Origin: Flavobacterium franklandianum
Lineage (GTDB): Bacteria > Bacteroidota > Bacteroidia > Flavobacteriales > Flavobacteriaceae
DNA length: 64,000 nt
Direction: 5' to 3'
Assembly (NCBI RefSeq): GCF_007097365.1
Contig: NZ_VJZR01000005.1
Coordinates: forward strand, 62,001-126,000
Part shown: piece after piece, positions 29,147-45,373 of the stretch
Layout of the letters: every line of letters begins with the position of its first letter
Numbering within the stretch: position 1 is the first letter of the stretch
Notes under the pieces: generated by a model
What the model saw: the letters and a program-made list of their open reading frames with translations, nothing else
Told to the model about the DNA's origin: nothing
The model's database searches: none
Translations under genes and position numbers: made by a program

Positions 29147-29216
29147 CATATAAGGTCAGATAAGCTTTGGAATACATTACTTAAATGACCTTAAATGTCT
29201 TATATGGTAAAAAAAT
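29147..29216. repeat. Short inverted repeat; dispersed-repeat copy A
   Basis: Bases 29147-29164 and 29180-29197 form an imperfect hairpin (15 of 18 pairs). The right arm plus following bases (29180-29216) match 42294-42330 at 33 of 37 positions. It lies between the anti-sigma gene and tatD and could act as a terminator for the sigma operon. Confidence 0.6.
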
Positions 29217-29938
29217 CAATCCAATTCGTTCAACAATTGTTGCACTTGGTCGTAATCCTCAAAATCATCGGGAATTGTCAACAGAATCTCTTTACAAGAT
29301 TTATACTCTTTCTGTTTCAATTTTAAAAGTGCTAAGTACCAAGTCGCTTTGTGTTTATAAACAGAAGTTCCTGATTTTAACTCTGACAAATTGGTTTCTG
29401 CTTTTTGAAATTGATTGTTTTCCAAAAGCGAAACCGCATAGAAAAATTGGATTTCAGGCGATTTTTTTTCTTTTAAAACGGTTTCAAATTGCGGAATAGC
29501 AGCCTTGTAATTCTTAGTATTGAATGCGTCTTGCGCCAATTTTAAATTTTCGTTTACATCGCCTCTTTCGATGAAAGTTGCCATTTCCGGACTATTATAA
29601 TCGTCAAAAGATGGGTTTATATTCTGAAAAAAAAACAATCCTAACAAAACAGCTACCGAAGCTGCTGCTGCATATTGCCAAGATTTTAAAGCTATAACTT
29701 TTGATTTTTTTGCTTTAAAATGTTCCTTGGAAACTGATTTTAAATTCTTTTTGAAAGCTTTTAATTCCTGTTCATTCCCAAATTTATGCTCCAAATGAAG
29801 ATGTAATTCCTTAAATATTTCAAATGTTGAAGCGAATTCTTTGTCTTCGGCCAATTGTTTTTCGAAAATTGTTTTTTCTTCGGCAGACAATTCGTTTTCG
29901 ATATATTGACCAAATAATATGTAGCGTTCCTCGTTCAT
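29216..29938 (-). CDS. Membrane TPR protein, candidate anti-sigma factor
   Basis: A 240-residue protein with a charged helical N-terminus (about 1-80, MNEERYILFGQYIENELSAEEKTIFE), a single transmembrane helix (about 87-105) and a C-terminal TPR-like helical region (about 130-240). The N-terminal layout is that of anti-sigma factors, which hold an ECF sigma at the membrane. The gene begins 2 bases after the stop of an ECF sigma gene, which supports that role. No zinc-binding cysteine/histidine motif is visible. The TPR part would face the periplasm and may receive the signal. Confidence 0.7.
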   Translation of the reverse strand: MNEERYILFGQYIENELSAEEKTIFEKQLAEDKEFASTFEIFKELHLHLEHKFGNEQELKAFKKNLKSVSKEHFKAKKSKVIALKSWQYAAAASVAVLLGLFFFQNINPSFDDYNSPEMATFIERGDVNENLKLAQDAFNTKNYKAAIPQFETVLKEKKSPEIQFFYAVSLLENNQFQKAETNLSELKSGTSVYKHKATWYLALLKLKQKEYKSCKEILLTIPDDFEDYDQVQQLLNELD

Positions 29939-29940
29939 GG

Positions 29941-30525
29941 CTAATTGATTTTTAAAGATTTAAAGCGATTTGTTTCTTGAACCCACTGGGTTAATTGACC
30001 TACGCATAACGATTTTTTCTTTCGAACATAGCCATAAGTTACATTGAGTTTTTCGGCAACTTCCTCCATAGATTTGATGGTAAAACTCAATTTCAATAAC
30101 TCTTGGCATTTGTCGCCCAGTTTTTGAAACATCAAATCAAAAAGTTTTTGTTTTTCGTCGAATATTTCGGTTTCTGTTACCATTTCCTCTGTGGGTTCAT
30201 TATTAGATGGCAAATCTTCATCGATTGTTACCCCCTTATTCGAAGATTTTTTTATTTCGTTCAACCATTTTCTTTTACACAATAAGAAGAAGTAAGCATC
30301 AAACGGGCAAGTTAGTTGGAGCTTTTTGGCTTTAGCCTGATTAAAAAGTAAAATCATAATTTCCTGAACGACATCTTGTGCCTTGTCTAGATCGCCTGAA
30401 TTGTTCCTTATATAATGAACGACTTTGGGAACGAACTTCTTGTAAATAGATTGAATTATCGCCGAATCATTATTGGCAAGTCCATCAATGTAGATTTGGT
30501 CGAGATGAATAGTGGTTTTGGACAT
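29941..30525 (-). CDS. ECF-type RNA polymerase sigma factor
   Basis: About 194 residues. Region 2 is recognised by YKKFVPKVVHYIRNN and DKAQDVVQEIMILLFNQA, and region 4 by CQELLKLSFTIKSMEEVAEKL followed by the helix-turn-helix NVTYGYVRKKKSLC. No extra domain is present. It should redirect RNA polymerase to a small regulon. The ATG at 30525 is used because the upstream extension to 30567 overlaps a promoter-like repeat and is not sigma-like. The anti-sigma candidate is immediately downstream in the same operon. Confidence 0.9.
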   Translation of the reverse strand: MSKTTIHLDQIYIDGLANNDSAIIQSIYKKFVPKVVHYIRNNSGDLDKAQDVVQEIMILLFNQAKAKKLQLTCPFDAYFFLLCKRKWLNEIKKSSNKGVTIDEDLPSNNEPTEEMVTETEIFDEKQKLFDLMFQKLGDKCQELLKLSFTIKSMEEVAEKLNVTYGYVRKKKSLCVGQLTQWVQETNRFKSLKIN

Positions 30526-30558
30526 AAAAAAACTTTTTATCGAAAATACTAAAAAAAG

Positions 30559-30590
30559 GGGTAACAAATATAAAACCGAGTTGATATAAC
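30559..30590 (+). promoter_or_regulatory. Promoter-like repeat, copy 1
   Basis: GGGTAAC, 15 bases, then TTGATATAAC. Two more copies with exactly the same spacing lie at 30717 and 30786. It ends 41 bases before the ATG of a 21-codon frame on the plus strand and lies 33 bases upstream of the minus-strand sigma gene. Confidence 0.65.
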
Positions 30591-30631
30591 TATATAAAAC
30601 AAAAATTAAAGCTTTCTAAATCTTTTAAATT

Positions 30632-30697
30632 ATGAAAAAGTTAAAAAAATTAGGAATGACTTTCATTTTCAAACTTTGGACATTAATAACCCGATAA
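30632..30697 (+). CDS. 21-codon leader-like open frame
   Basis: ATG at 30632 to TAA at 30697 encodes MKKLKKLGMTFIFKLWTLITR: a basic start followed by a hydrophobic stretch, like the first part of a signal peptide. Its ATG is the same distance (about 40 bases) from repeat copy 1 as the lipoprotein ATG is from copy 3. It may be a truncated paralogue or a leader peptide; expression is unproven. Confidence 0.35.
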   Translation: MKKLKKLGMTFIFKLWTLITR

Positions 30698-30716
30698 AAA
30701 AATAATTCAAAATAAA

Positions 30717-30748
30717 GGGTAACAATTAAAACCGCAAGTTGATATAAC
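30717..30748 (+). promoter_or_regulatory. Promoter-like repeat, copy 2
   Basis: GGGTAAC-N15-TTGATATAAC again. It shares a further upstream block with copy 3 (19 bases common from TCAAAATAAA onward). A five-codon frame follows directly and no gene starts at the 40-base distance, so it may be a tandem upstream site for the lipoprotein gene. Confidence 0.65.
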
Positions 30749-30785
30749 AATGAAACCAGAATAAATAAATAAAAATCAAAATAAA

Positions 30786-30817
30786 GGGTAACAATATCAA
30801 ACCCGAATTGATATAAC
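30786..30817 (+). promoter_or_regulatory. Promoter-like repeat, copy 3
   Basis: Third copy of GGGTAAC-N15-TTGATATAAC, ending 40 bases before the lipoprotein ATG at 30858. It is the best candidate for the promoter of that gene, possibly read by the adjacent ECF sigma factor. Confidence 0.7.
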
Positions 30818-30857
30818 AACAGAAAACAATAAACAAACAATTAAAACACTAGAAATT

Positions 30858-31841
30858 ATGAAATCAAATTTTAAAAACATCGGACTTTTAGCTTTAGCAA
30901 CAATCCTTTTTGCAAGCTGTACTAACAATGAAAACACAACTCCAATTCCTCCTTCGGCAGCAGCTTTCAAAGGAATTAAGGAAAACGGACTCAAAAAGAA
31001 CACCCAAAACTTCACTGCAACTGCAGGAGCTGGGGTTATCACATTAACATCTGCAAAAGGAGTGGTTATAACATTAAACGGAAACGCATTGACCAAAAAT
31101 GGAAACCCTGTAACCGGAGCAATTGACATTACATTTGTGGAACTTTTCGACAAAGGAAATATGCTAATTTCAAACAAACCTACAATGGGAGTGATGCCTG
31201 ACGGTAAAAAAAGTTTACTGAAATCTGGAGGAGAATTTTTCATCAAAGCTTCTCAAGGTGGTGTAGATTTAGTTTCAACTGGCGGAATTCAACTTCAAGT
31301 TCCCGTAAATTTAACTGGAACAATGGATACAGGGATGCTTTTTTGGGCTGGCGATACAAAAGACCCTGAAAACCTTGCTTGGGTAAATCCTCGTAACGCA
31401 GCTGGAACTGGAGGTCAAAAAGATGGAAATGTTGGTTTTGGTCAAAATAGTTATAATGTTACTTTTGGAAACTTTGGTTGGACAAATGTGGATAAATTTT
31501 ACAGCGATCCAAGACCAAGAACAACAATTTTAGCAGCCGTTCCAACAGGATACGACAATACAAATAGTGCTATTTATTTGTCTTATGATGGCGAAGGTCA
31601 AAATGCGCTTGCTAAACTAGACACTTACAATCCAACAACATTACAATTTAGCGAACATTATGGCCAAATTCCAATAGGATTAGCTTGCCACGTTATTTTT
31701 GCCACCGAAGATAATGGAAACTGGAGATACGCCATCAAAGCTGTAACGGTTGCGCCTGGCGATGTTTACACCTTCACTTTGGGAGAAACTACTGTAGTAA
31801 CTGAAGCTCAATTAGTAGCAGCCATCAACGCAATACAATAA
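30858..31841 (+). CDS. Hypothetical lipoprotein of the ECF/LytTR locus
   Basis: A 327-residue lipoprotein with lipobox LFASC (Cys21). I do not recognise a named family. The region about 55-150 (ITLTSAKGVVITLNGNAL...PVTGAIDITFVEL) looks like a beta-rich domain seen in Bacteroidota surface proteins, where a secreted sandwich is followed by a W-rich C-terminal half. Residues 38-48 (KGIKENGLKKN) recur, nearly unchanged, in the repeat protein encoded at 35543. A hairpin follows the stop at 31862. The gene stands behind three promoter-like repeats, so it may be a major target of the sigma factor. Confidence 0.75.
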   Translation: MKSNFKNIGLLALATILFASCTNNENTTPIPPSAAAFKGIKENGLKKNTQNFTATAGAGVITLTSAKGVVITLNGNALTKNGNPVTGAIDITFVELFDKGNMLISNKPTMGVMPDGKKSLLKSGGEFFIKASQGGVDLVSTGGIQLQVPVNLTGTMDTGMLFWAGDTKDPENLAWVNPRNAAGTGGQKDGNVGFGQNSYNVTFGNFGWTNVDKFYSDPRPRTTILAAVPTGYDNTNSAIYLSYDGEGQNALAKLDTYNPTTLQFSEHYGQIPIGLACHVIFATEDNGNWRYAIKAVTVAPGDVYTFTLGETTVVTEAQLVAAINAIQ

Positions 31842-31861
31842 ACGAAAAATATAATTTTTAG

Positions 31862-31890
31862 AAAAGTGGTGATTTGCTCACCGCTTTTTT
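31862..31890 (+). terminator. Rho-independent terminator
   Basis: Arms 31862-31872 and 31878-31888 pair with one wobble, and a T run follows. It separates the lipoprotein gene from the LytTR/LytS pair. Confidence 0.8.
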
Positions 31891-31907
31891 CTATTTTTAA
31901 AAAATAT

Positions 31908-32615
31908 ATGATACTGATAAAAACCATACTTGTAGATGATGAAATTCTAAACCTCAAAAATTTAGAAATTATTTTGAATGAAAATTTTCCAGAAATAGAA
32001 ATTCTAGGCTTATTTCAAACGGTAGAAGACGCAAAATCATTTATAGAAAACAATCCTATTGATTTGCTTTTCTTGGATATTTCGATGCCAATAGAAAACG
32101 GATTCGATTTGTTAGAGTATTTTCCAGTAAGAGATTTTCAGGTAATATTCGTCACTGCTCACGAAGATTATGCCATACAAGCTATTCGAGTTGGCGCCAT
32201 AGATTATATTTTGAAACCGATTCTTATTTCGGAATTGAGGATTGCCATTGCTAAAGTTTCGGAAATTTGTGGCTTGATAAACAAACCTGATTCTGCAAAC
32301 AAACTAACAATAACTTACGAGGGCGGAAAATCAATTTTAGATTTTGATGAGATTCTTTATCTAAAAGGTTTCGACAATATCACAACAATTTACCTCACCA
32401 AAAACCGAAAACTAACCGTTGCAAAAACCTTGAAACATTTTGAAGACATCCTGGAAAAAGACTTTTTTAGAATTCACAAATCGTTTATTGTAAATTTAAA
32501 GTTTGTATCCAAAATTTTGTCAAAAGAAGCCTATTTTCTGGAGTTAAACGAAGGCACACTATTGCCAGTTTCAAGACGAAATTATAAAAATTTGAATGAT
32601 GTTCTAAAAAAATAA
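31908..32615 (+). CDS. LytTR-type response regulator
   Basis: A 235-residue regulator. The receiver domain has VDDE near the start, phospho-acceptor D57 (LFLDISMP), the T in VTAHED and K in LKPI. A LytTR DNA-binding domain fills about 135-235 (DEILYLKGFDNITTIYL, FFRIHKSFIVNL, VSRRNYKNL). The ATG at 31908 follows the terminator; the GTG at 31866 lies inside that hairpin and is rejected. The cognate kinase starts 3 bases after its stop, so the pair is one operon. Confidence 0.95.
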   Translation: MILIKTILVDDEILNLKNLEIILNENFPEIEILGLFQTVEDAKSFIENNPIDLLFLDISMPIENGFDLLEYFPVRDFQVIFVTAHEDYAIQAIRVGAIDYILKPILISELRIAIAKVSEICGLINKPDSANKLTITYEGGKSILDFDEILYLKGFDNITTIYLTKNRKLTVAKTLKHFEDILEKDFFRIHKSFIVNLKFVSKILSKEAYFLELNEGTLLPVSRRNYKNLNDVLKK

Positions 32616-32618
32616 TTG

Positions 32619-35435
32619 ATGAAAAGAGCATATATAATCCTAATTTTTTTAGTTTTTAATTCCATATCGAATGCTCAAATTCAATATACATTCAACCGTT
32701 ATACTACCGACGATGGTTTGCCAACCAATTCCATTTATTGCATCACCGAAGATAAAAACGGGGGAATTGTTTTAGGAACAGATAATGGTTTGACTTTTTT
32801 TGACGGAAACATTTTTAAAACTTTAAATGTAAAAGACGGATTGATAAATCCATACATCGTTGCAGTTGCTAAAGATGAAAAGGATGTTATATGGCTTATA
32901 AATTATGGAGGAGAACTTCAAAAGTTTGTAAACAATACCATAATTACAACCCCATTTTTAACCGAACAAACCAATTCCATTTTAAACGCAGCATCCAAAA
33001 TTTATGTTTATACAACCCAAAACAGGTATTCGAACAAATCCTATTATTATCGAGTAATAAACAAAAAAAACGGGCTGGTTTCTAAATCTAAAAATACTAA
33101 TAACCCGACAAAATTTGCTTCGCCAGTATTTTGCCAGAACAATAAAGAGATTAAAACAATAAATAATAATTTAATTTTTGACAATCATAAAATTGCAATT
33201 CCCAAAGACGTTTCATTATTGCATAAAGTGATTTTTAGAAAAAATAATGTTTGCCTTTTAGATGAAAATTATCTTTTTATTCTTGATTTCGACGGAACTG
33301 TTTTAAGCAAAATAAAACTTCCAAATTCACTATCAAAAAATGCAGTTTATAAATATGATTTTATAACAGACAAGCAAGAAAACTGTTGGTTAAACATCCA
33401 AAACAAAGGGCTTTTTATTTTAAAATCAAACAATTGGATTGCAATAAATGAAAATTTAGGGTTAAGTTCTGCTGACAATATTAATTTTATTTATAATGAT
33501 TCAACCGGGAAAATTTGGATTGCTACCCACGAAAAAGGCTTGTTTTGCATTCCAAATATTGACATTCAATTCATAAAATTCCCTAATGAGAATAATTATT
33601 TTAACGGATTTGCTTATTCGTTAGATAAAAACACATTGTTTTTTTCGTCGAAATTCAACTTGTATTCCTTAGACAAAACAAACAACATCAAACCAATAAA
33701 AAGATCAAAAGAGGAAATAAAGATTGACAACTTCAATTCAATTCCAGTGTTTTTTACTAACAAAACAAATCCGCCAACTTGGGACAAAAACACACAAATT
33801 CTACTCGTTCAAGGCCGAGCTTTATTGAAATATGAAACGCCAATTAGTTATACATTATACGGAAGAAATAGTTTGCGTCATTATAACAATCAAATGTCTT
33901 CACAACCTGAATCACCTATTCAAGAAAAAATAAGAAGGGTAATTTTATACAAAAACGATTATTATTTCAGTAATTCTGAAAAAATAAATATCCGAACTTT
34001 TAATGAAAAGGAAATTAAAATTAAACGGGAATTAAAATTTAAAATTAAAGGATTTATTCAAGATTTTGCTTTCATAAAAGACACTATGTGGATTGCTACA
34101 GAAGGTAAAGTTTACAAAGCTTTCAACGAGAAAATTGTAGATAGCATTTCATCGATAAACAATATTCCTGTTGAAAATATAAACAGAATAAAAACTATAA
34201 ATGACGCTGTTTATTTGTGGAATATGAATGGTTTGTTCGTTTTGGGTCCAAAAGGGAATAGAGTGCTAAACAAACATAATTTTTTGCCAAGCAATGATGT
34301 TAATAATGTTACATTATTCAACAATCAATTATTGGTTGCAACCAAAGATGGATTGGCAAAAATAAACGCTACTTTAATTCTGAAAAAATCTACAAAACCT
34401 GTCTTTAATGTGCTTTACAATGCTAAAATTGAATCTAAAATCGAGATTTCGTCTGACGAAGAATTGGTCAAACTAGAATTTAAAATTAAAAATTTTGAAG
34501 CTCCAAAAAACCAAATAATTCAATATAAAATGGATCATTTGCATTGGATAACTACACAAAATTTATTTGTTAATTTTCAATCCTTATCTTACGGCAAACA
34601 TTCTGTTTCTGTTCGGGTAAAAGATGTGAATTCCGACTGGACAATCCAAAATATTAGTATAAAAAAAGCCTATCCATTTTATTTAAAATGGTGGTTTGTC
34701 TTGCTGGCTAATTTAGTCGCTTTAGGATTGATTTATTTGATTTATCGCTATCAGATTACTAAAATAAAGCGCAAGAAACAGCAAGAAATTGCCACCAATA
34801 ATAAAGTAGCCGAATTGCGTCAAAGTGCACTTTCAGCAATGATGAATCCTCACTTTGTGTTCAATTCTCTCAATGCAATCCAGTATTTTGTAAACAGTAA
34901 CCAAAAGGAAAAAAGCAGCGAACATTTAGGAAAACTGGCCCGATTGGTTCGATTGTTTTTGTCGCACGCTTCGGAACCTTTTATCAGTTTAGAAGACGAA
35001 ATCAAGCGATTAAAAATCTACTTGGAACTAGAAAAAGTGCGGTTTAATAATTTTGATTTCACTTTCAACATTGAGAATAAAATTGACATCCATCAAACCA
35101 AAATTCCAAATATGATTGTACAACCGTTTATAGAAAACGCAATTCTTCACGGCGTTTCACATCTTAAAGAAAATGACGGAAAAATTGATTTGAATTTTCA
35201 TTTACAAAAAAATATTTTAACTATTGAAGTTATCGATAACGGTTTTGGAATTGACACGAACAAACCCAAAAACGCCAGTCACATTTCAAAAGGAGCTGCA
35301 ATTATTAACGAAAGAATCGAAATTTTGCAACAATCCTATCCCGAAAAAGTGTTTACGATAACACAACGAGATGCGTTTCCAGACCCAATTCGAAAAGGAC
35401 TTAAAGTGGTTATTGTGGTTACTATTTTAGAATAA
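32619..35435 (+). CDS. LytS-type sensor histidine kinase with Reg_prop propeller
   Basis: A 938-residue membrane kinase: signal peptide, an extracytoplasmic propeller with Reg_prop-like repeats (YTTDDGLPTNSIYCI, GTDNGLTFFDG, IWIATHEKGLF), a Y_Y_Y-like segment, one membrane helix (about 692-712), a short coiled coil, and a His_kinase domain with the phospho-acceptor H745 in MNPHFVFNSLN. An HATPase domain (QPFIENAILHG, DNGFGID) ends the protein. It should phosphorylate the LytTR regulator encoded immediately upstream. The ATG at 32619 is used rather than the TTG at 32616. Confidence 0.95.
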   Translation: MKRAYIILIFLVFNSISNAQIQYTFNRYTTDDGLPTNSIYCITEDKNGGIVLGTDNGLTFFDGNIFKTLNVKDGLINPYIVAVAKDEKDVIWLINYGGELQKFVNNTIITTPFLTEQTNSILNAASKIYVYTTQNRYSNKSYYYRVINKKNGLVSKSKNTNNPTKFASPVFCQNNKEIKTINNNLIFDNHKIAIPKDVSLLHKVIFRKNNVCLLDENYLFILDFDGTVLSKIKLPNSLSKNAVYKYDFITDKQENCWLNIQNKGLFILKSNNWIAINENLGLSSADNINFIYNDSTGKIWIATHEKGLFCIPNIDIQFIKFPNENNYFNGFAYSLDKNTLFFSSKFNLYSLDKTNNIKPIKRSKEEIKIDNFNSIPVFFTNKTNPPTWDKNTQILLVQGRALLKYETPISYTLYGRNSLRHYNNQMSSQPESPIQEKIRRVILYKNDYYFSNSEKINIRTFNEKEIKIKRELKFKIKGFIQDFAFIKDTMWIATEGKVYKAFNEKIVDSISSINNIPVENINRIKTINDAVYLWNMNGLFVLGPKGNRVLNKHNFLPSNDVNNVTLFNNQLLVATKDGLAKINATLILKKSTKPVFNVLYNAKIESKIEISSDEELVKLEFKIKNFEAPKNQIIQYKMDHLHWITTQNLFVNFQSLSYGKHSVSVRVKDVNSDWTIQNISIKKAYPFYLKWWFVLLANLVALGLIYLIYRYQITKIKRKKQQEIATNNKVAELRQSALSAMMNPHFVFNSLNAIQYFVNSNQKEKSSEHLGKLARLVRLFLSHASEPFISLEDEIKRLKIYLELEKVRFNNFDFTFNIENKIDIHQTKIPNMIVQPFIENAILHGVSHLKENDGKIDLNFHLQKNILTIEVIDNGFGIDTNKPKNASHISKGAAIINERIEILQQSYPEKVFTITQRDAFPDPIRKGLKVVIVVTILE

Positions 35436-35542
35436 AACACCCTTTTTTACCGTTCCCTAAATGAAACCTACCGTATTCTAAATGGTTTTGGTTTGTGTGT
35501 TCTATTTACCATAGTTTTATTATATATAAAATTCTAGAAACT

Positions 35543-38263: not shown

Positions 38264-38281
38264 AATGGTTCCATAAAATGA
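38255..38281 (+). other. Repeat-unit relic across the stop codon
   Basis: In frame, the bases read K D stop N G S I K stop, aligned with K G W D G S I K G of the array. The stop TGA at 38261-38263 corresponds to the repeat TGG codon, and a second TGA replaces GGA. About 22 of 26 bases match the array unit. Confidence 0.5.
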
Positions 38282-38380
38282 GATAAAAAGAACTTAGAAC
38301 ATCTTATGATATATATTTCTACCGGAAAACATCAATAAGGTTTTGAATTCTAGAAATAATAATAAAATCAACCAACAATA

Positions 38381-39163
38381 ATGCACCCCGAACTATTCCA
38401 TTTTCAACTCCCTGAAATATTGACATATTTGTTTCATATAAAACAAGTGATGGTTTACACTTATGCGTTTTGTATCGTTCTTGGAGGTTTAGCATCCGCC
38501 ATATACACGAAAAGAGCGGCACAAAAAGATTTAGGAATTAAGAACCTTTCCAACAACTTTTTTTACCTGATATTCATCAGTGGTTTTGTGGGTGGAAAAT
38601 TGTTTTTTTACCTCGAAAATCCTTTATATTACTGGAATAATCCAAGTTTATTATTAGATAATTTTTCGGGCGGGTTCGTATTTTACGGTTCGTTTGTAAC
38701 CATAATTCCCGTGATTGTTTGGTATTTAAAAAACCAAAATATTCCGGTTTTACCAATGTTGGATATCTTGGCAATTACCACATTAATAGTTCACGCTTTT
38801 GGACGACTTGGTTGTTTCAACGCAGGTTGTTGCTACGGTTCACCTACAAAAAGTTTGTTTGGAATGCCTTTTCCAACAACAAATCACGTTGCTGTTCATC
38901 CTACCCAGCTTTACGAAGTGTATATTTTACTGATTCTTTTGGGATTTCTAACAATTATTAAAAAACATAAAAAATTTCAGGGGCAAATCTTCTTGTTATA
39001 CATCAGTTTATACGGCATAAGTCGGGCAATATTAGAACTTTTTAGAGGTGATTCCAGAGGTTATATAATCAAAGATGTTTTGTCTCACTCTCAATTTATT
39101 GCAGTAGTTTTATTATTGATATCCCTGTTTTTTTATAAAAAATTAAACAAAAAAATAAATTAA
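38381..39163 (+). CDS. Divergent prolipoprotein diacylglyceryl transferase (Lgt)-like membrane protein
   Basis: A 260-residue polytopic membrane protein of the Lgt superfamily, shown by HPTQLYE near residue 173 and GRLGCFNAGCCYG with R142. Canonical Lgt transfers diacylglycerol from phosphatidylglycerol to the lipobox cysteine, using a conserved histidine in a GG-x3-HGG type loop. Here the same loop reads GGFVFYG, so Tyr102 takes the place of that histidine, and a cysteine-rich CFNAGCC replaces the usual GNFxN. It is therefore likely a paralogue with altered or unknown chemistry. A lipoprotein gene starts 18 bases downstream. Confidence 0.82.
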   Translation: MHPELFHFQLPEILTYLFHIKQVMVYTYAFCIVLGGLASAIYTKRAAQKDLGIKNLSNNFFYLIFISGFVGGKLFFYLENPLYYWNNPSLLLDNFSGGFVFYGSFVTIIPVIVWYLKNQNIPVLPMLDILAITTLIVHAFGRLGCFNAGCCYGSPTKSLFGMPFPTTNHVAVHPTQLYEVYILLILLGFLTIIKKHKKFQGQIFLLYISLYGISRAILELFRGDSRGYIIKDVLSHSQFIAVVLLLISLFFYKKLNKKIN

Positions 39164-39181
39164 TCCTTAAATAATCAGAAA

Positions 39182-40030
39182 ATGAAAAACAAATTTTTAA
39201 AAATTATTTTGCCAATGCTGCTTGTTGTTGTCGCAATATTTATTATTGGACCTGGATGTTCGCCAACACCAACACCGCCACCGCCACCTATAGTTGAAAA
39301 AGCCATTGTTGTAGATGCTGCCACTGGTGATCCTTTTCCAGATATTACAGACAAAGATTGCGTAGGTAATTATATAACAAATGGGTATTTCAACACAACC
39401 GTTCAAAGTCCAAATATTCAAGTCGATGAAGACATTATTGCAGCAACTGGCTGGAGACGGGTTTGGAAAAAAAATCCTCCTTTTAATGTCATAGGAGCCG
39501 ATTTATTTTCATCGGGAACATCACCAATGGGAATATCGCCAGCACCAGCTCCAACTTCTGGAAATTATGCCAGTATGTGGGTTACTAATAAGAGCACTGA
39601 TCCCAATCAGTACAGAGAAGCAATGTTTAATAGATTGCATCATTATATTAAACCAGAGCCAGTGCCCGTGACTTACGTCCTGGAATTTAAAACCGCCAAG
39701 TTGAATAATACTGCTCAACAAGTTGAAATCAGTATTTATGGTGTTAATTATGACGACATAGCACCCGTAACACTTCCGCTACAACCTTCAGTAATAGCTA
39801 CACCAACAAACATAAATTTGTTTGGCGCTGCCAATACCGTTTTTTTAGGCACTATAATAATTCCAGCTGGAGCAAATAATACTTGGGTAAATCAGAACAT
39901 TGCTTTCACTCCTAATTCAAAAGAATATCCAGTTGGCGGATTCAATTATATTCTAATTACAAGAAGTGATAATGAAGGAAAAGGAATGGCATATTGCGCA
40001 TTCGATGATTTTTGTTTACACAAAAAATAA
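39182..40030 (+). CDS. Hypothetical proline-rich-linker lipoprotein
   Basis: A 282-residue lipoprotein with lipobox IIGPGC, followed by a short TPTPPPPP linker and a beta-rich globular part (about 55-282) containing NGYFNTT, SGNYASMWV and AYCAFDDFCLH. The last segment resembles the jelly-roll carbohydrate-binding type domains of surface proteins, but I cannot name a family. It follows the Lgt-like gene by 18 bases and is probably co-transcribed with it. A terminator follows at 40083. Confidence 0.7.
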   Translation: MKNKFLKIILPMLLVVVAIFIIGPGCSPTPTPPPPPIVEKAIVVDAATGDPFPDITDKDCVGNYITNGYFNTTVQSPNIQVDEDIIAATGWRRVWKKNPPFNVIGADLFSSGTSPMGISPAPAPTSGNYASMWVTNKSTDPNQYREAMFNRLHHYIKPEPVPVTYVLEFKTAKLNNTAQQVEISIYGVNYDDIAPVTLPLQPSVIATPTNINLFGAANTVFLGTIIIPAGANNTWVNQNIAFTPNSKEYPVGGFNYILITRSDNEGKGMAYCAFDDFCLHKK

Positions 40031-40082
40031 AATTAAACCTTCAAAACAAGGTGACAACCTCATAAACTATTTGATTTAATTT

Positions 40083-40111
40083 AAAAGTGACGATTTATTC
40101 GTCACTTTTTT
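40083..40111 (+). terminator. Rho-independent terminator
   Basis: Perfect 11-base arms (40083-40093 and 40099-40109), a 5-base loop and a T run directly downstream of the lipoprotein gene. Confidence 0.85.
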
Positions 40112-40130
40112 CTATTTTTAAAAATATTTT

Positions 40131-40212
40131 GAAGCTAATCCTGCTGTTCGCTATATCTTTTCCCACGCAAAAAAGCGCGGAAAAAGGATGCCGCTGCCAT
40201 CAGGGCTAAAAA
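40131..40212 (+). repeat. Intergenic repeat element of Flavobacterium type
   Basis: This GC-richer block contains CTGCTGTTCGCTATATC, an imperfect hairpin around CACGCAAAAAAGCGCGG, and GGATGCCGCTGCCATCAGG. From memory, closely similar blocks recur between genes in Flavobacterium genomes. Only one copy is in the window, so repetition is not shown here. It lies directly before the PKD/barrel gene. Confidence 0.5.
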
Positions 40213-40222
40213 CGTCTCGGCT

Positions 40223-42181
40223 ATGAAAAAACTTTTATCTTTTATCTTTTGTCTTTTATCTTTTGTCGTTTTTTCACAAGTTAAAGTAAAAGATACCGTA
40301 ACCCGAAAAGCCAAAATCACTTATAATCAAAACAGAAATGCGGTAACTTTCAAACCTGAAACTCCTCCTTTAATCCCGATTGCTGGCGCACCAAAACCTT
40401 CTTATTCCTATTTATGGGAATTCGGAGATGGTCATTACAGCAAAGAACCCGAACCCAAACACGTTTATAAAAACAAAGGAACATACAAAACCAGACTTGC
40501 AGTAACCAATAATTACGACAACGGAAAACCACCAGCAACCCGACCAAAAACACTTGCCGTAAACGAAATTTCAAGTGAAGAGGTTTATACTGATATAGCT
40601 TCCATCGAAGACCAAAACGGCTTGGCCATCCAGAAAAATTGCGATCCCATTCCCGATCAGCAAATGGAGGTAATCGTGAGCTATCAAAATATGGAAAACT
40701 ACGTTGCCGATGGAAAATTATATCTTTTCTACAACGAAAAACAATTTAAAAACGACAATTTTGAATTGGTCGATTTTAGGACTTATGCAGGCGAAAGAGA
40801 AGTCAAGGAAAATCTGGTTGCAACTGTGAATGATTTAGAAAACTCGGATTTGTATTTGGCTTACGAAGAGGCGCTGTCAACAGCCAAAAAATACAAAATT
40901 ACCACTACTGAAGAAGATTTAGACGCTACTTTATTAGAAGCCTATAAAACCTATAAAAAAGCAACCATATTAGAATTTGACGGAGTCAATCCAGGCGAAA
41001 CCCGTAACGTGTTTTTTACTCACAAAACCACACCAGAAATGATTAAAGATACCAGTGCAACGGTAACAATACGTAGTGTTTTTGTCCCAAACAGAAGTTT
41101 TAAAAACCACAAAGTCAAAAATCTCGAAATGGAAATTGTAACCTCGCACGACCCAAACAAAATGGGTTCCAACGGAAGCTTTATGAACTACAGATTGGTG
41201 CGATTCAAAAGAGTCAACTTCAAAACACGTTTCCAGAACAATGGTGAAGGCCCAGCAAGAATGATTCGGTTAGAAACCGATATTCCGGATATGTTCGACA
41301 AAAAGACTTTCCAAATAGAAGATATGTATCCCAAATGCCCGATTTGTCCAAAAGGCGAAGAACCTACAACAAGTTGCCTTGACACCATCATCAAGCAAAA
41401 ACAAATGTTTTTTACTTTCAAAAACATCTATTTACCAGGAAGCACACAAAAAAACGTCAAAGAAAAAGACAGTACCAAAGGCTTTGTCAAGTATTCGATG
41501 AAGTTCAACAGAGACTTTCACAAAACGAAAACCAAAAGTAGAACCGCTATTATTTTTGATAAAAACGAACCTATTGTTACAAATTATGCCACTACACGAT
41601 TCTTGCCAGGAATTTCCATAGGTGTCAAAGCAGGATACAATTATTATCCTGATTTAGAAAATTCAAAAAGTTATTTTGTGGGTGCGACCATTTCGCCTTT
41701 TAAATCCTACCGTTTTTATTGGCAAGCAGAATTAATTAATAGCATCAACAAATTCAATTTAGGAACGACAATTACGACAGGTTTTGTAACAACGAATAAT
41801 GGAGTTAGACAACCCACACGGACAACCACAACACTAAGTTATTCAAATTTCAATAACGAAATCCCTCTTCTTATTCGCTATAATATTAATAATTTCATCG
41901 GAATTGGAGCAGGAGTTCAAGCCAATATTAACGCATCGGAAAAGCAAGAACAATACACTAAAATAGAATATTTAGAATCTGAAAAAACAAATGCTATTGT
42001 TCTTAAAACCGACGAAACCATTTTGTCTAGCAGTAAAAATTTTACAAATATAAAAACAGGTTTATTGTTTGATTTAACCATTGGCGCGGCAAGAATTGGA
42101 CCAAGTTTTGGCGCGAGGTATGTGATGAATTTCGAAGACAATTTCAATTATTTTCAGTTGTATGGGATTTGGAAGTTTTAA
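40223..42181 (+). CDS. PKD-domain protein with C-terminal outer-membrane barrel
   Basis: A 652-residue exported protein: signal peptide (LSFVVFSQ), a PKD domain at about 55-115 (YLWEFGDG, KHVYKNKGTY), a long mixed region containing a conserved-looking DPNKMGSNG and a C-P-x-C pair (YPKCPICPKG), and a C-terminal segment (about 455-652) with alternating strands that looks like an outer-membrane barrel ending in tryptophan-lysine-phenylalanine. No named family beyond PKD can be assigned. It is transcribed toward the CHAT gene, 136 bases downstream. It may be the outer-membrane part of the same envelope system. Confidence 0.72.
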   Translation: MKKLLSFIFCLLSFVVFSQVKVKDTVTRKAKITYNQNRNAVTFKPETPPLIPIAGAPKPSYSYLWEFGDGHYSKEPEPKHVYKNKGTYKTRLAVTNNYDNGKPPATRPKTLAVNEISSEEVYTDIASIEDQNGLAIQKNCDPIPDQQMEVIVSYQNMENYVADGKLYLFYNEKQFKNDNFELVDFRTYAGEREVKENLVATVNDLENSDLYLAYEEALSTAKKYKITTTEEDLDATLLEAYKTYKKATILEFDGVNPGETRNVFFTHKTTPEMIKDTSATVTIRSVFVPNRSFKNHKVKNLEMEIVTSHDPNKMGSNGSFMNYRLVRFKRVNFKTRFQNNGEGPARMIRLETDIPDMFDKKTFQIEDMYPKCPICPKGEEPTTSCLDTIIKQKQMFFTFKNIYLPGSTQKNVKEKDSTKGFVKYSMKFNRDFHKTKTKSRTAIIFDKNEPIVTNYATTRFLPGISIGVKAGYNYYPDLENSKSYFVGATISPFKSYRFYWQAELINSINKFNLGTTITTGFVTTNNGVRQPTRTTTTLSYSNFNNEIPLLIRYNINNFIGIGAGVQANINASEKQEQYTKIEYLESEKTNAIVLKTDETILSSSKNFTNIKTGLLFDLTIGAARIGPSFGARYVMNFEDNFNYFQLYGIWKF

Positions 42182-42208
42182 TTATTGGCACACAGATGAC
42201 ACAGATTT

Positions 42209-42247
42209 AAACAGATTGTCACGAATTTATTTTATCAAAATCTGTTT
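42209..42247. repeat. AAACAGATT inverted repeat
   Basis: Nine-base arms at 42209-42217 and 42239-42247 lie in a CACAGAT-rich context between the PKD/barrel gene and the CHAT gene. Such CACAGATT strings recur between genes in this group, by memory. It may terminate the upstream transcript. Confidence 0.45.
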
Positions 42248-42293
42248 GAATCGGTAGCCTTTTCATATCATCTATGAATTCAAAATAGTCCAA

Positions 42294-42330
42294 CTTAAAT
42301 GAACTTATATCCCTTATATGGTAAAAAAAC
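42294..42330 (+). repeat. Dispersed short repeat copy B, spanning the CHAT start codon
   Basis: It matches 29180-29216 at 33 of 37 bases, including CTTAAATGA and TTATATGGTAAAAAAA. The ATG of the CHAT gene (42318) lies inside it, so the translation start region is part of the repeat. Confidence 0.65.
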
Positions 42331-44939
42331 TTTTTTATCTTCTACTATTCTTAACTCTAAATATTTTTGGACAAAATCCGCTTGCACCAGAAGATAAAAT
42401 TTACAATGCCGTAGATGACTTTGTGACCAATCCTTCTTCGGAAAGTTTACAAAAACTAGAAGCAACCGAAAAAAATTTTTGGAAAAATCCAAAGCCAAAA
42501 TCCACGAAGGAATTACTTGCAATTGTAGTTTTAAATTGTAATAAAGCCTATTATGAAAGCAAATTTGGCAAGACCAATCAAGCCATTTTAAGTTATGAAA
42601 AAGCCTGGTCTGTTTATCAAAAATACAAACTTTCAGGTTATGATATCACAGAATACTGCTTGAAACCGTTGGGCAATCTTTACACGATTATGGGCGATTA
42701 TGACAATGCCGAAAACACCATAAAACAATATTATTTTATTGCTAATGTTGAGAAAGACCAGTCACAAAAAACAGCAGCAATTATCAATTTATCGAACGTG
42801 TACCAAAACACAGGCAGGATTAATGAAGCAATTGATTTACTCGAAAAAACTATTAAAACCGAGAAATTATCTGCCGTTCAAAAAGGAAATATATGGAACA
42901 ACTTGGGGAATAATTATGTGTTGAGTTATAAAAACCCAGACTTTTCAAAACGGATCCCAAATATTTTTAAAAAACTAGAAAGCTCCTATTTTTCCGCCAT
43001 TCAATTATTGCAATCAGATAAAACCCAAACCGAAACATTGGCCAATTGTTACCGTAATTTATCCGCAATAAATATGCAATGGCAAAATATTGAATTAGCG
43101 AATTCCTATTTTGAAAAAGCAAAAAAATATTTCTTTGCATCACCAAATATATCGTCTCGTAAACTAGCAAAATTCAATTATGAAGAAGCCAATCTGTTAT
43201 TTCAACAACAAAAATATACAGACGCAAGCAAGATTATATCATCCGTTTTCAAGACTTTAATTCCAACCTATTCCTATCAAAAAAACATTCTACCTAGCCC
43301 AAATGCACTTTATGCCGAAACCATTTTATTGGACGCATTGGACTTACAAGCCGAAATTTTTGTAGAACAAAACCAGCCTAAAAAAGCGTTAAAAGCTTAT
43401 TCGCTTTCGTTTCTAATCGAGGATTTGTTTGCCAATTTGCTGGTTTATGAAAATTCCAAAATCATCAATCAAATCCGCATCAGGAACAGAACCGAAAAAT
43501 GCATTTCCATTTATGACTTTCTTTATCAAAAAGAAAATATAATCGCTTATTTAGAAAGTGCTTTCCAACTTCAAGAACGAACCAAATCGGGTGTTTTGAA
43601 AAACTATCTTTCCAACAAAAAAACAGCTTCCAGAGAAGAAACATTGCATTTAGAACAACTTCAAAACTGGAACAACGAAATCGTCAAAGAACAGCAAAAA
43701 GGAGACTTGGCAAACGTTGCGAAAATAAACGAAGCCATAAAAAGACAAAACGAATTGATGCTTTCTCTAAAGAAAATTAGATCGAAAAATCAAATTAATA
43801 AAGCGGAAAACATCGATTTAAAATCCTTGTATTCTAAACTCGAGAAAGACAAAGCGATTATGGTGGAATATTTTTCGGGTTTTGAAACAATGTACATTTT
43901 CACCTTGGCAAACCAAAGGATAAACCTCGAACATATTAACGTAACTGATACGGCAATACCAAAAATAATTTCATTTTTGGATTATTTTAGCGATGCCAAT
44001 AAAATTACCGATAATATTTCGGGTTATAACCATTATGGTAATTCATTGTATAAAATGTTGAAATTGCCAACAAATGCAACTTATCAAAACCTCATCATTA
44101 TTCCTGATGGAATATTGAATTTCCTGCCTTTTGAAGCTTTGATTACGAAAGAATCCAGCACGACCAATTTTACCAAAATGCATTATTTACTGAACGATTT
44201 CAGGATTGCCTACAATAATTCGGCAACATTTTATTTGGAAGGAAAACCCATTTCAAGCGACAAGAAATCAGTTCTCGGAATTTTTCCTGTTTTCGAAAAA
44301 ACCAATTACGAATTGACGTTTTCCAAAGCTGAAATGGAATCAATCAAAAGTAATTTCGACGGACAGTTTTTCAATAATTCAAACGCCACTTTCGATAATT
44401 TTAAAATGAATGCTAACCATTATTCCATTTTACATTTGAGCACCCATGCCACTTCTGGCAATACCGAAACTTCTGCAAATATTAAATTTTATGATCAGGA
44501 GGTTCTATATTCAGAGTTGTATAACCTCCATATAAATCCTGACTTGGTAGTTTTGAGCGCCTGTGAAACCGGAATTGGAAAACTTTACAAGTCCGAAGGA
44601 GCAATGAGTATTGCTCGAGGATTCCAGTTTGCCGGAGCACAAAATTTATTGTTTTCATTATGGAAAGTAAACGATTATACAACTTCGGTATTTATGAATT
44701 ATTTTTATAAAAACATCAAAAAAAACATTCCTTATTTTGAAGCTAATGCCAATGCCAAAAGGAATTTCCTGAAAGACGAATCGGTATCAAATGCAAAAAA
44801 ATCGCCTTATTATTGGAGTGCATTTGTGTATTATGGGGAACTTGAAACCTCTAAACCACAATCAAATTATTATTTTTATATTCTGGGTTTATTGATTTTA
44901 ATTGGATTATTTTTGGCCTTTAATCGTTACCGAAAATGA
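42318..44939 (+). CDS. Membrane-anchored TPR-CHAT (caspase-like) protein
   Basis: An 873-residue protein with a signal peptide (to about 18), helical TPR-like repeats (about 60-440), a charged helical linker, and a CHAT domain (about 590-845). The caspase-type catalytic pair is present: H710 in LHLSTHAT and C749 in LSACETG. A single C-terminal helix (about 852-869) anchors it to the inner membrane, placing the protease domain in the periplasm. CHAT proteases usually act on specific partners after a signal relayed by their TPRs. Its stop overlaps the retropepsin-like gene start by 4 bases (ATGA), giving translational coupling. Confidence 0.9.
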   Translation: MVKKLFYLLLFLTLNIFGQNPLAPEDKIYNAVDDFVTNPSSESLQKLEATEKNFWKNPKPKSTKELLAIVVLNCNKAYYESKFGKTNQAILSYEKAWSVYQKYKLSGYDITEYCLKPLGNLYTIMGDYDNAENTIKQYYFIANVEKDQSQKTAAIINLSNVYQNTGRINEAIDLLEKTIKTEKLSAVQKGNIWNNLGNNYVLSYKNPDFSKRIPNIFKKLESSYFSAIQLLQSDKTQTETLANCYRNLSAINMQWQNIELANSYFEKAKKYFFASPNISSRKLAKFNYEEANLLFQQQKYTDASKIISSVFKTLIPTYSYQKNILPSPNALYAETILLDALDLQAEIFVEQNQPKKALKAYSLSFLIEDLFANLLVYENSKIINQIRIRNRTEKCISIYDFLYQKENIIAYLESAFQLQERTKSGVLKNYLSNKKTASREETLHLEQLQNWNNEIVKEQQKGDLANVAKINEAIKRQNELMLSLKKIRSKNQINKAENIDLKSLYSKLEKDKAIMVEYFSGFETMYIFTLANQRINLEHINVTDTAIPKIISFLDYFSDANKITDNISGYNHYGNSLYKMLKLPTNATYQNLIIIPDGILNFLPFEALITKESSTTNFTKMHYLLNDFRIAYNNSATFYLEGKPISSDKKSVLGIFPVFEKTNYELTFSKAEMESIKSNFDGQFFNNSNATFDNFKMNANHYSILHLSTHATSGNTETSANIKFYDQEVLYSELYNLHINPDLVVLSACETGIGKLYKSEGAMSIARGFQFAGAQNLLFSLWKVNDYTTSVFMNYFYKNIKKNIPYFEANANAKRNFLKDESVSNAKKSPYYWSAFVYYGELETSKPQSNYYFYILGLLILIGLFLAFNRYRK

Positions 44940-45373
44940 AAACCCTTCCCGATATTCTAAAAAAAGAAAACTACAAAAAAATAAAATTCAAGGTTTCGAA
45001 AACACAACATTTGCTCATCAAAGCAAAAATTAATGGTGTTAAAGGTAATTTTATCCTTGACACAGGTGCTTCTAATAGTTGTATTGGTTTTGAAAGCGTA
45101 GAATTGTTCTTATTGGAAGCCAAACATTCGAAAACAAAAGCTTCAGGTGCAGGCGCAACAGGAATGTCGACACAGATTGCCGTTGGTAATAAATTACAAT
45201 TAGGCAATTGGAAACACATTGATTTTGATCTCGTTATTTTTGATTTATCCCACGTAAACGAAGCTTTGGTTGCTTTTAAAGCAAAACCAGTTCACGGTAT
45301 TATTGGTGCCGATATTTTAATGAAAGGCAAAGGGATTATTGATTATTATAATCATTGTTTGTACTTACTTTAG
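44936..45373 (+). CDS. Retropepsin-like aspartic protease
   Basis: A 145-residue single-domain protein with the retroviral-type aspartic protease motif FILDTGASNS (catalytic D42) and the later hydrophobic-glycine HGIIGADIL segment that completes the fold. Such proteins work as homodimers. No signal peptide is visible, so it is probably cytoplasmic. It is coupled by a 4-base overlap to the CHAT gene, suggesting that the two proteases are made together. Its 3' end overlaps the convergent MFS gene by 38 bases. Confidence 0.85.
   Translation: MKTLPDILKKENYKKIKFKVSKTQHLLIKAKINGVKGNFILDTGASNSCIGFESVELFLLEAKHSKTKASGAGATGMSTQIAVGNKLQLGNWKHIDFDLVIFDLSHVNEALVAFKAKPVHGIIGADILMKGKGIIDYYNHCLYLL

Follow-up and report, generated by a model that had tools for sequence, protein, structure and literature searches.

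Exported CHAT cysteine proteases are predicted widely in Bacteroidota, and we know of no function for any of them. What such a protease might do is the question raised by a locus of Flavobacterium franklandianum, at positions 29216 to 45373 of a stretch of 64,000 nucleotides (contig NZ_VJZR01000005.1, positions 62,001 to 126,000) that was analysed as a whole and is called the window below. Here the gene of a CHAT protease with tetratricopeptide repeats (TPR) stands near those of an extracytoplasmic function (ECF) sigma factor and of a membrane protein predicted to be its anti-sigma factor. All genes named in a preliminary description of this DNA are present, with positions and domains as given there (29216..45373). 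Its proposal of one envelope system holds for the sigma/anti-sigma pair, a lipoprotein, a DUF7849 protein and the CHAT protease, which co-occur; it does not extend to the genes of an insert and to a retropepsin-like protease, which we exclude. Judged by sequence comparison, the module is real, conserved and new in its combination. A literature search covering few subscription journals returned no publication that links CHAT, ECF sigma and TPR anti-sigma in flavobacteria.

Conservation of the module and its proteins

Two samples were compared: 150 related genomes (G labels) and at least 80 CHAT loci from a scan of named genomes; single loci of either sample bear L labels. A genome was taken to bear this CHAT when the match exceeded 500 bits, which gave 34 of the 150; 39 had some match, and the 5 weaker ones were counted as lacking it. 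The lipoprotein is present in 33 of the 34, the exception being G047, which has another gene at the lipoprotein place. The anti-sigma factor is likewise present in 33; the remaining genome, G031, has a contig that stops within sigma. At high score the anti-sigma factor was found in 36 genomes altogether, the other three being G074, G077 and G049. The proposed co-occurrence of the sigma/anti-sigma pair, the lipoprotein and CHAT is thus borne out, while the retropepsin and the sequence KGIxENGLKKN, which had been proposed along with them, do not share this distribution.

The locus sample gives the same picture at the level of gene order. After removal of the duplicates L084, L142 and L107, as for the 69-locus counts below, 79 distinct CHAT loci remained, including five distant ones (L145, L146, L149, L158 and L166) and several that contig ends cut short. 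Sigma and lipoprotein are both present in 67 of these, with sigma on the opposite strand in every case. The order TatD, anti-sigma, sigma, divergent lipoprotein, DUF7849, CHAT, retropepsin was found in nearly all loci read; apart from G047, exceptions include some loci with two lipoproteins. This order is kept in Flavobacterium (including F. johnsoniae CI04), Aquimarina, Olleya, Winogradskyella, Bizionia, Algibacter, Dokdonia, Mariniflexile and Hyunsoonleella, and Psychroflexus (L126) retains anti-sigma, sigma, lipoprotein, DUF7849 and CHAT. The window holds the following features:

29216 to 29938, minus strand: predicted anti-sigma factor, a membrane TPR protein (TPR matches, hydropathy, sigma neighbour)
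29941 to 30525, minus strand: ECF sigma factor, TIGR02937 above cut-off (longest frame to 30567)
30559 to 30590, plus strand: predicted sigma-type promoter motif, copy 1, GGGTAACA-N14-TTGATATAAC, 41 nucleotides 5' of a 21-codon open reading frame
30632 to 30697, plus strand: predicted microprotein of 21 residues, MKKLKKLGMTFIFKLWTLITR, with relatives behind motif copies elsewhere
30717 to 30748, plus strand: motif copy 2, an exact match
30786 to 30817, plus strand: motif copy 3, 40 nucleotides 5' of the lipoprotein ATG
30858 to 31841, plus strand: lipoprotein, lipobox Cys21 (orthologue searches, structure model)
31862 to 31898, plus strand: predicted intrinsic terminator 3' of the lipoprotein gene, a hairpin with a T-run
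31908 to 40030, plus strand: insert with LytTR regulator, LytS, repeat barrel, Lgt-like protein and a lipoprotein of 282 residues (lipo282), missing at this site in L104
40050 to 40080, plus strand: candidate degenerate motif copy with 3 mismatches, 5' of the terminator that precedes DUF7849
40083 to 40120, plus strand: second terminator-like stretch near the right insert end, belonging to a repeat 75% identical to the one at 31862
40223 to 42181, plus strand: predicted outer-membrane protein, PKD-DUF7619-DUF7849 by domain profiles, with a C-terminal beta-barrel
42318 to 44939, plus strand: TPR-CHAT cysteine protease (PF12770), by prediction exported and held in a membrane near its C-terminus (hydropathy)
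44936 to 45373, plus strand: retropepsin-like aspartic protease (PF13650), by its distribution an adjacent non-member

The sigma factor was recognised by TIGR02937 (58.7 bits, cut-off 42.9), with Sigma70_r2 at its cut-off and Sigma70_r4 below; comparison with orthologues makes the ATG at 30525 a likelier start than 30567. The anti-sigma gene adjoins the sigma gene in the loci read. By hydropathy its product has one hydrophobic membrane segment (residues 89-107), with about 88 N-terminal residues predicted to be cytoplasmic and the C-terminal TPR part predicted to be periplasmic; this orientation is itself a prediction. Against named anti-sigma profiles it scored below both cut-offs (NF052375, 20.1 bits against 100; NF047528, 16.7 against 200), and we refer to this TPR membrane protein next to sigma as the predicted anti-sigma factor.

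Two genomes with a fused pair are informative. In G077 and G049 (loci L187 and L188) sigma region 2 is fused in frame to the anti-sigma factor, of which the membrane and TPR part remains; sigma region 4 and the first part of the anti-sigma factor are gone. Since both share the same fusion, it probably arose in one event. Neither genome gave a match to the lipoprotein, to CHAT or to the probable promoter motif described below (up to 1 mismatch), and no DUF7849 was found in the 12 kb read. The joint absence of the targets and of the promoter-reading region fits a dedicated sigma factor.

The lipoprotein matched no Pfam family above cut-off. In its structure model residues 48-215 appear to resemble GAIN/ZU5-type domains and residues 219-313 an Ig/transthyretin-like domain. 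The GAIN/ZU5 autoproteolytic superfamily is described, in the accessible part of PMC3482391, as having a C-terminal CxH active site, which is absent from the window lipoprotein. The top Foldseek rows for this protein (CGTases, TM about 0.2) were judged spurious. KGIxENGLKKN, put forward as a signature of the lipoprotein family, does not mark that family: its loose form occurs in 3 of 37 orthologues and relatives (the window, L096 and L078). The repeat barrel of the window (35495-38263) carries two KGI and four KGW versions of its repeat. In G062 the lipoprotein gene is split across two contig ends (L095 and L096), and in L099 and L101, from genomes without this CHAT, lipoprotein relatives lie near retropepsin and TatD. 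The model of the DUF7849 protein is of low confidence (pLDDT 67, pTM 0.41) and ends in a run of C-terminal strands.

A repeated, probable promoter motif and the products behind it

Repeat finding in the region between sigma and lipoprotein revealed three related stretches of about 67 nucleotides, which the preliminary description had overlooked. Their core, GGGTAACA-N14-TTGATATAAC, occurs without mismatch at 30559, 30717 and 30786 on the strand facing the lipoprotein, and these are the only exact copies in the 3.8-Mb genome; none of 100 window shuffles had 3 matches. When a looser form of the core was used and up to 2 mismatches were allowed, one other site in the same genome was found at 1 mismatch and 29 at 2.

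The motif is conserved along with the module. Between sigma and lipoprotein it was found (up to 2 mismatches) in 65 of the 67 loci holding both genes, with all 151 copies pointing forward and none in reverse. The full set of loci searched, 121 sequences with 2.1 Mb in total, gave 165 forward copies, 4 reverse copies and 1 in the backward control. With up to 1 mismatch it is present in 29 of the 34 genomes with CHAT and in 3 of the 116 without (Fisher p 1.5e-22; these are related genomes, and p serves as a guide only). The other five CHAT genomes (G008, G025, G061, G088 and G106) have copies at 2 mismatches, and one of the three CHAT-less genomes, G074, has a short contig that holds sigma, anti-sigma and lipoprotein. 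A binding site for the LytTR regulator was considered and ruled out, as the motif is kept in loci without LytTR; since LytTR is missing from these other motif-holding loci, the motif tracks sigma and not LytTR.

The motif reads GGTAACA, 16 nucleotides, GATATAAC. An AAC in the upstream box is typical of ECF promoters, and both this AAC and the spacing fit such a promoter. The motif contains neither the TAnnTTTG box of the primary sigma factor nor the CGT box given for F. psychrophilum SM6 promoters in the available text of PMC9723704. It is probably the promoter of the module's sigma factor, with GGTAAC as -35 and GATATAA as -10 element.

What stands behind the motif points to envelope proteins. 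Among 160 different copies, 122 have a frame of 15 or more codons, opened by an ATG, within the next 120 nucleotides, and in 108 of the 122 it begins at 20-79 nucleotides; the other 38 have no such frame, and some of these stand in front of another copy. Grouped by family, the longer products comprise 65 lipoproteins (that of the module and others of about 199 residues), 21 proteins of 98-101 residues that contain a hydrophobic stretch, and 16 of 143-165 residues that look exported; three more stand alone. A peptide of 21-22 residues ending in ITR lies behind 9 copies in 7 genomes (6 besides that of the window), at a distance of 38-41 nucleotides. Codon comparison detected no purifying selection on this microprotein, non-synonymous changes exceeding synonymous ones in all differing pairs of equal length, so the case for it rests on its position and recurring residues. 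The motif supplies a list of likely outputs, among them this microprotein, which is too short for the usual gene finders. G047 and G048 carry the motif at further loci as well, and at one of these in G048 a relative of the window's repeat barrel has a perfect copy 26 nucleotides 5' of its ATG, beside a two-component system.

The insert and the retropepsin gene

The eleven genes had been described as one simple run. The predicted terminator between the lipoprotein gene and LytTR argues that they are not, and it stands 5' of an 8.2-kb insert found at this site in the window only, which removes LytTR, LytS, the repeat barrel, the Lgt-like protein and lipo282 from the proposed system. Of 69 loci, 67 have less than 1.5 kb between lipoprotein and DUF7849; the gap is longer in L148, at 2.8 kb, and in the window, at 8.4 kb. 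L104, the nearest relative (CHAT 85% identical), has none of the insert genes, and the one terminator that it has there matches the terminator-like stretches on either side of the insert. Among 149 other genomes, one holds a relative of this barrel; LytTR, LytS, the Lgt-like protein and lipo282 were looked for in the fetched loci. No motif copy within 5 mismatches was found in the stretches scanned before LytTR, the barrel, the Lgt-like gene and lipo282. By these sequence comparisons, the LytTR/LytS/Lgt block is an unrelated insertion.

Inspection makes 31908 the likelier start of LytTR and 35543 that of the barrel. LytTR is a response regulator, and LytS combines Reg_prop, Y_Y_Y (below cut-off) and His_kinase. 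The Lgt-like protein (38381-39163) matches Pfam LGT (5.6e-51) and reaches 98.6 bits with the equivalog TIGR00544, below its cut-off of 118.9. The classical Lgt motif is GRxGNFxNxExxG; at its place this protein has GRLGCFNAGCCYG. Another Lgt is encoded at G000:C3:6220-7104. The intergenic sequence CTGTTCGCTATATCTTTT (window 40144-40161) has 7 sites in the genome (up to 2 mismatches) and none in the backward control; it is likely an intergenic repeat.

The retropepsin-like protease is well defined as a family (PF13650, 46.4 bits, cut-off 24.3, 6.4e-12); of 31 aligned sequences, at least 95% carry DTGAS. No membrane segment was found in it. Its gene overlaps that of CHAT by 4 nucleotides, and the two had been proposed as a coupled pair. 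The coupling is not obligate: retropepsin occurs in 80 of the 150 genomes, namely in the 34 with this CHAT and in 46 of the 116 without. In 6 of 6 loci without the CHAT operon and sigma (L099, L101 and L189-L192) it adjoins TatD, and in two of these it lies directly between TatD and sucB. In G106 it stands away from the module, and in G069 the two are on different contigs. This distribution rules out membership in the module. On this sequence evidence, retropepsin is the gene beside which the module sits.

CHAT protease and the predicted release of sigma

The CHAT domain was identified by PF12770 (155.4 bits, cut-off 24, 2.8e-45), and His710 and Cys749, the presumed catalytic residues, are invariant in 15 of 15 aligned sequences. 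Compared by sequence with solved structures, the protein gave 55 matches, all of TPR type and all inside its TPR part. The TPRs of CHAT had been suggested to match those of the anti-sigma factor; no such special match was seen (profile comparison, 44% probability). Hydropathy places a C-terminal membrane segment at residues 850-868 of the window CHAT, and 33 of the 34 CHATs of the relatives' set have such a segment.

We also considered 40 CHAT loci without the full module (L145-L183 minus L147 and L148, which carry it, plus L193-L195; L196 was excluded as it has no CHAT). They come from Saprospiraceae, Aureispira, Tenacibaculum, Flavobacterium paralogues and others, and several are short contigs, including L163 with a close orthologue. 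As a raw count, a sigma/anti-sigma pair lies no more than about 5 kb from CHAT in 16 of the 40, in many cases directly adjoining it; the lipoprotein is present in none of these 16 and a DUF7849 relative in one. Distant CHATs from loci with the pair have a signal-like start in 20 of 22 cases by a lenient rule and a C-terminal segment in 18 of 21. Together these two features would place CHAT beside the TPR part of the anti-sigma factor. In L168, from a Tenacibaculum, a single sigma/anti-sigma pair is accompanied by five CHAT genes in tandem.

The reading that we put forward, at even chances, is that sigma transcribes its neighbours from the repeated motif and that CHAT, by prediction a periplasmic protein, cuts the predicted membrane-bound anti-sigma factor. 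Release of sigma by CHAT fits the predicted topology and the adjacency of CHAT, sigma and anti-sigma in distant Bacteroidota. At rest, the anti-sigma factor would keep sigma at the inner membrane and expose its own TPR part to the periplasm, next to the CHAT domain. CHAT would be activated by a signal from the envelope, for which the barrel protein may serve as relay, and would cut the periplasmic part of the anti-sigma factor; further proteolysis would then release sigma. Free sigma would drive strong production of lipoproteins and small envelope proteins, and read-through of the terminator would yield more barrel protein and CHAT, a positive feedback.

Several observations weigh against release of sigma by CHAT, or against parts of it. 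The topology rests on hydropathy, and a stricter rule finds an N-terminal segment in 16 of the 34 CHATs, that of the window not among them. The fetched stretch holds no sigma/anti-sigma pair in 24 of the 40 distant loci, and the 16 loci with a pair are a raw count, uncorrected for ECF genes that lie near unrelated genes by chance. Lipoprotein relatives, mostly at lower score, occur in 14 genomes without this CHAT. As for the motif, L118 and L124 have no copy within 2 mismatches, and the looser form (up to 2 mismatches) shows no excess in its own genome, with 33 sites against 66 in the backward control, so only the near-exact form is informative. Transcription of CHAT raises a further difficulty. 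By a rule requiring a hairpin and then a T-run, a terminator lies between lipoprotein and DUF7849 in 65 of 69 loci (1 of 69 when shuffled) and between DUF7849 and CHAT in 3 of 69; that in the 65 loci separates CHAT from the motif promoters. The primary-sigma box (TAnnTTTG, 150 nucleotides upstream) was found 3 times before DUF7849 where 7.3 were expected and 12 times before CHAT where 7.6 were expected, a slight excess; the figures are 7 against 7.7 for the lipoprotein, including three far sites in L095, where the gene is truncated, and 19 against 13.7 for sigma. In the terminator and box tests the shuffles keep base composition only. The terminator and the lack of box enrichment before DUF7849 suggest that the lipoprotein would be made in excess, with CHAT depending on read-through or on a promoter that escaped recognition.

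CHAT, lipoprotein and DUF7849 could also all be outputs. On this alternative, which we consider possible though clearly weaker, a relay of the DegS/RseP type frees sigma, and lipoprotein, barrel protein and CHAT are envelope effectors, CHAT trimming the lipoprotein or the barrel. It would account for the place of CHAT, which has a sigma-type promoter upstream and genes for secreted partners next to it, for its conserved presumed catalytic residues and for a lipoprotein model whose fold appears similar to that of processed GAIN/ZU5-type domains, but it sits poorly with the terminator-like hairpin between promoter and CHAT in most loci and with the distant loci where CHAT and sigma/anti-sigma occur without the lipoprotein. 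An anti-phage or self-killing system, with CHAT as executioner and sigma as alarm, is unlikely. A CHAT protease does operate in type III-E CRISPR (PMC10028731, as far as its available text goes), and PADLOC returned matches of CHAT to a TPR model (4.3e-9) and of retropepsin to PDC-M08B (4.5e-7); the former, however, spans the TPR repeats only, and the latter concerns a protein that is no module member. In addition, the module stays at one site beside TatD in most loci, and the other motif-led products are envelope-like.

We find it very improbable that a different regulator, with its gene elsewhere, binds the motif and that sigma is a mere neighbour. Binding of the motif by sigma is a prediction, and G047 and G048 have copies at other loci too, but genomes mostly have either both motif and module or neither, spacing and position before an ATG fit a promoter, and in two genomes the motif is absent jointly with sigma region 4. 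Still less can be said for a single envelope system of all eleven genes, joined by LytTR/LytS and sigma. The genes are contiguous and mostly co-directional, and the barrel relative in G048 is motif-led; the absence of the insert from L104 and the other loci read, and of the motif before the inserted genes scanned, largely refutes it.

Release of sigma by CHAT would resemble known systems in part. According to the available text of PMC10028731, in type III-E CRISPR the TPR-CHAT protease Csx29 cuts Csx30, the inhibitor of CASP-sigma; there too TPR-CHAT is encoded with an ECF sigma factor and its inhibitor, and sigma sites lie inside the locus. Here, by contrast, the protease is predicted to be exported and membrane-anchored, the inhibitor is predicted to be a membrane TPR protein, and a lipoprotein and a barrel protein accompany the module in Flavobacteriaceae. 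No Cas protein was found among the 14 window proteins scanned, and no CRISPR search was made. With the RseA/DegS and RsiW-type systems, named in the same text, the module shares a predicted membrane anti-sigma factor, an ECF sigma factor and a predicted first cut outside the cytoplasm, but here a CHAT cysteine protease encoded in the locus is the candidate for that cut, and the sensor part of the anti-sigma factor is TPR. The SM6 (sigma-ECF) promoters of F. psychrophilum are also flavobacterial and assigned to an ECF sigma factor; as presented in the accessible part of PMC9723704, they have a CGT -10 box and serve type IX secretion and other genes, whereas the motif GGTAAC...GATATAA is hardly found outside one locus. 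Bacterial caspase/EACC2 neighbourhoods likewise combine a caspase domain, an ECF sigma factor and an adjacent TPR (DUF1822) gene, but differ in their EACC2 and TRADD-N domains, with no lipoprotein or barrel described in the available portion of PMC8195603.

A broader view can be offered tentatively, and we would not yet bet on it. Across Bacteroidota, there may be a CRISPR-independent periplasmic switch in which a CHAT protease, exported and anchored in the membrane, cuts a TPR anti-sigma factor and fires a dedicated ECF sigma factor. In Flavobacteriaceae this would drive an exchangeable row of envelope cargo, each item with its own promoter copy, including the 21-residue microprotein and a GAIN/ZU5-like lipoprotein paired with a caspase-like protease, as ZU5-type domains are with caspases in animal PIDD and NLRP1. 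If CHAT does control sigma, CHAT-gated sigma release would be a wider bacterial switch and not a peculiarity of CRISPR, and this one would face the envelope. The steady sigma/anti-sigma partner and the recognisable promoter make the role of the exported CHAT proteases a testable circuit.

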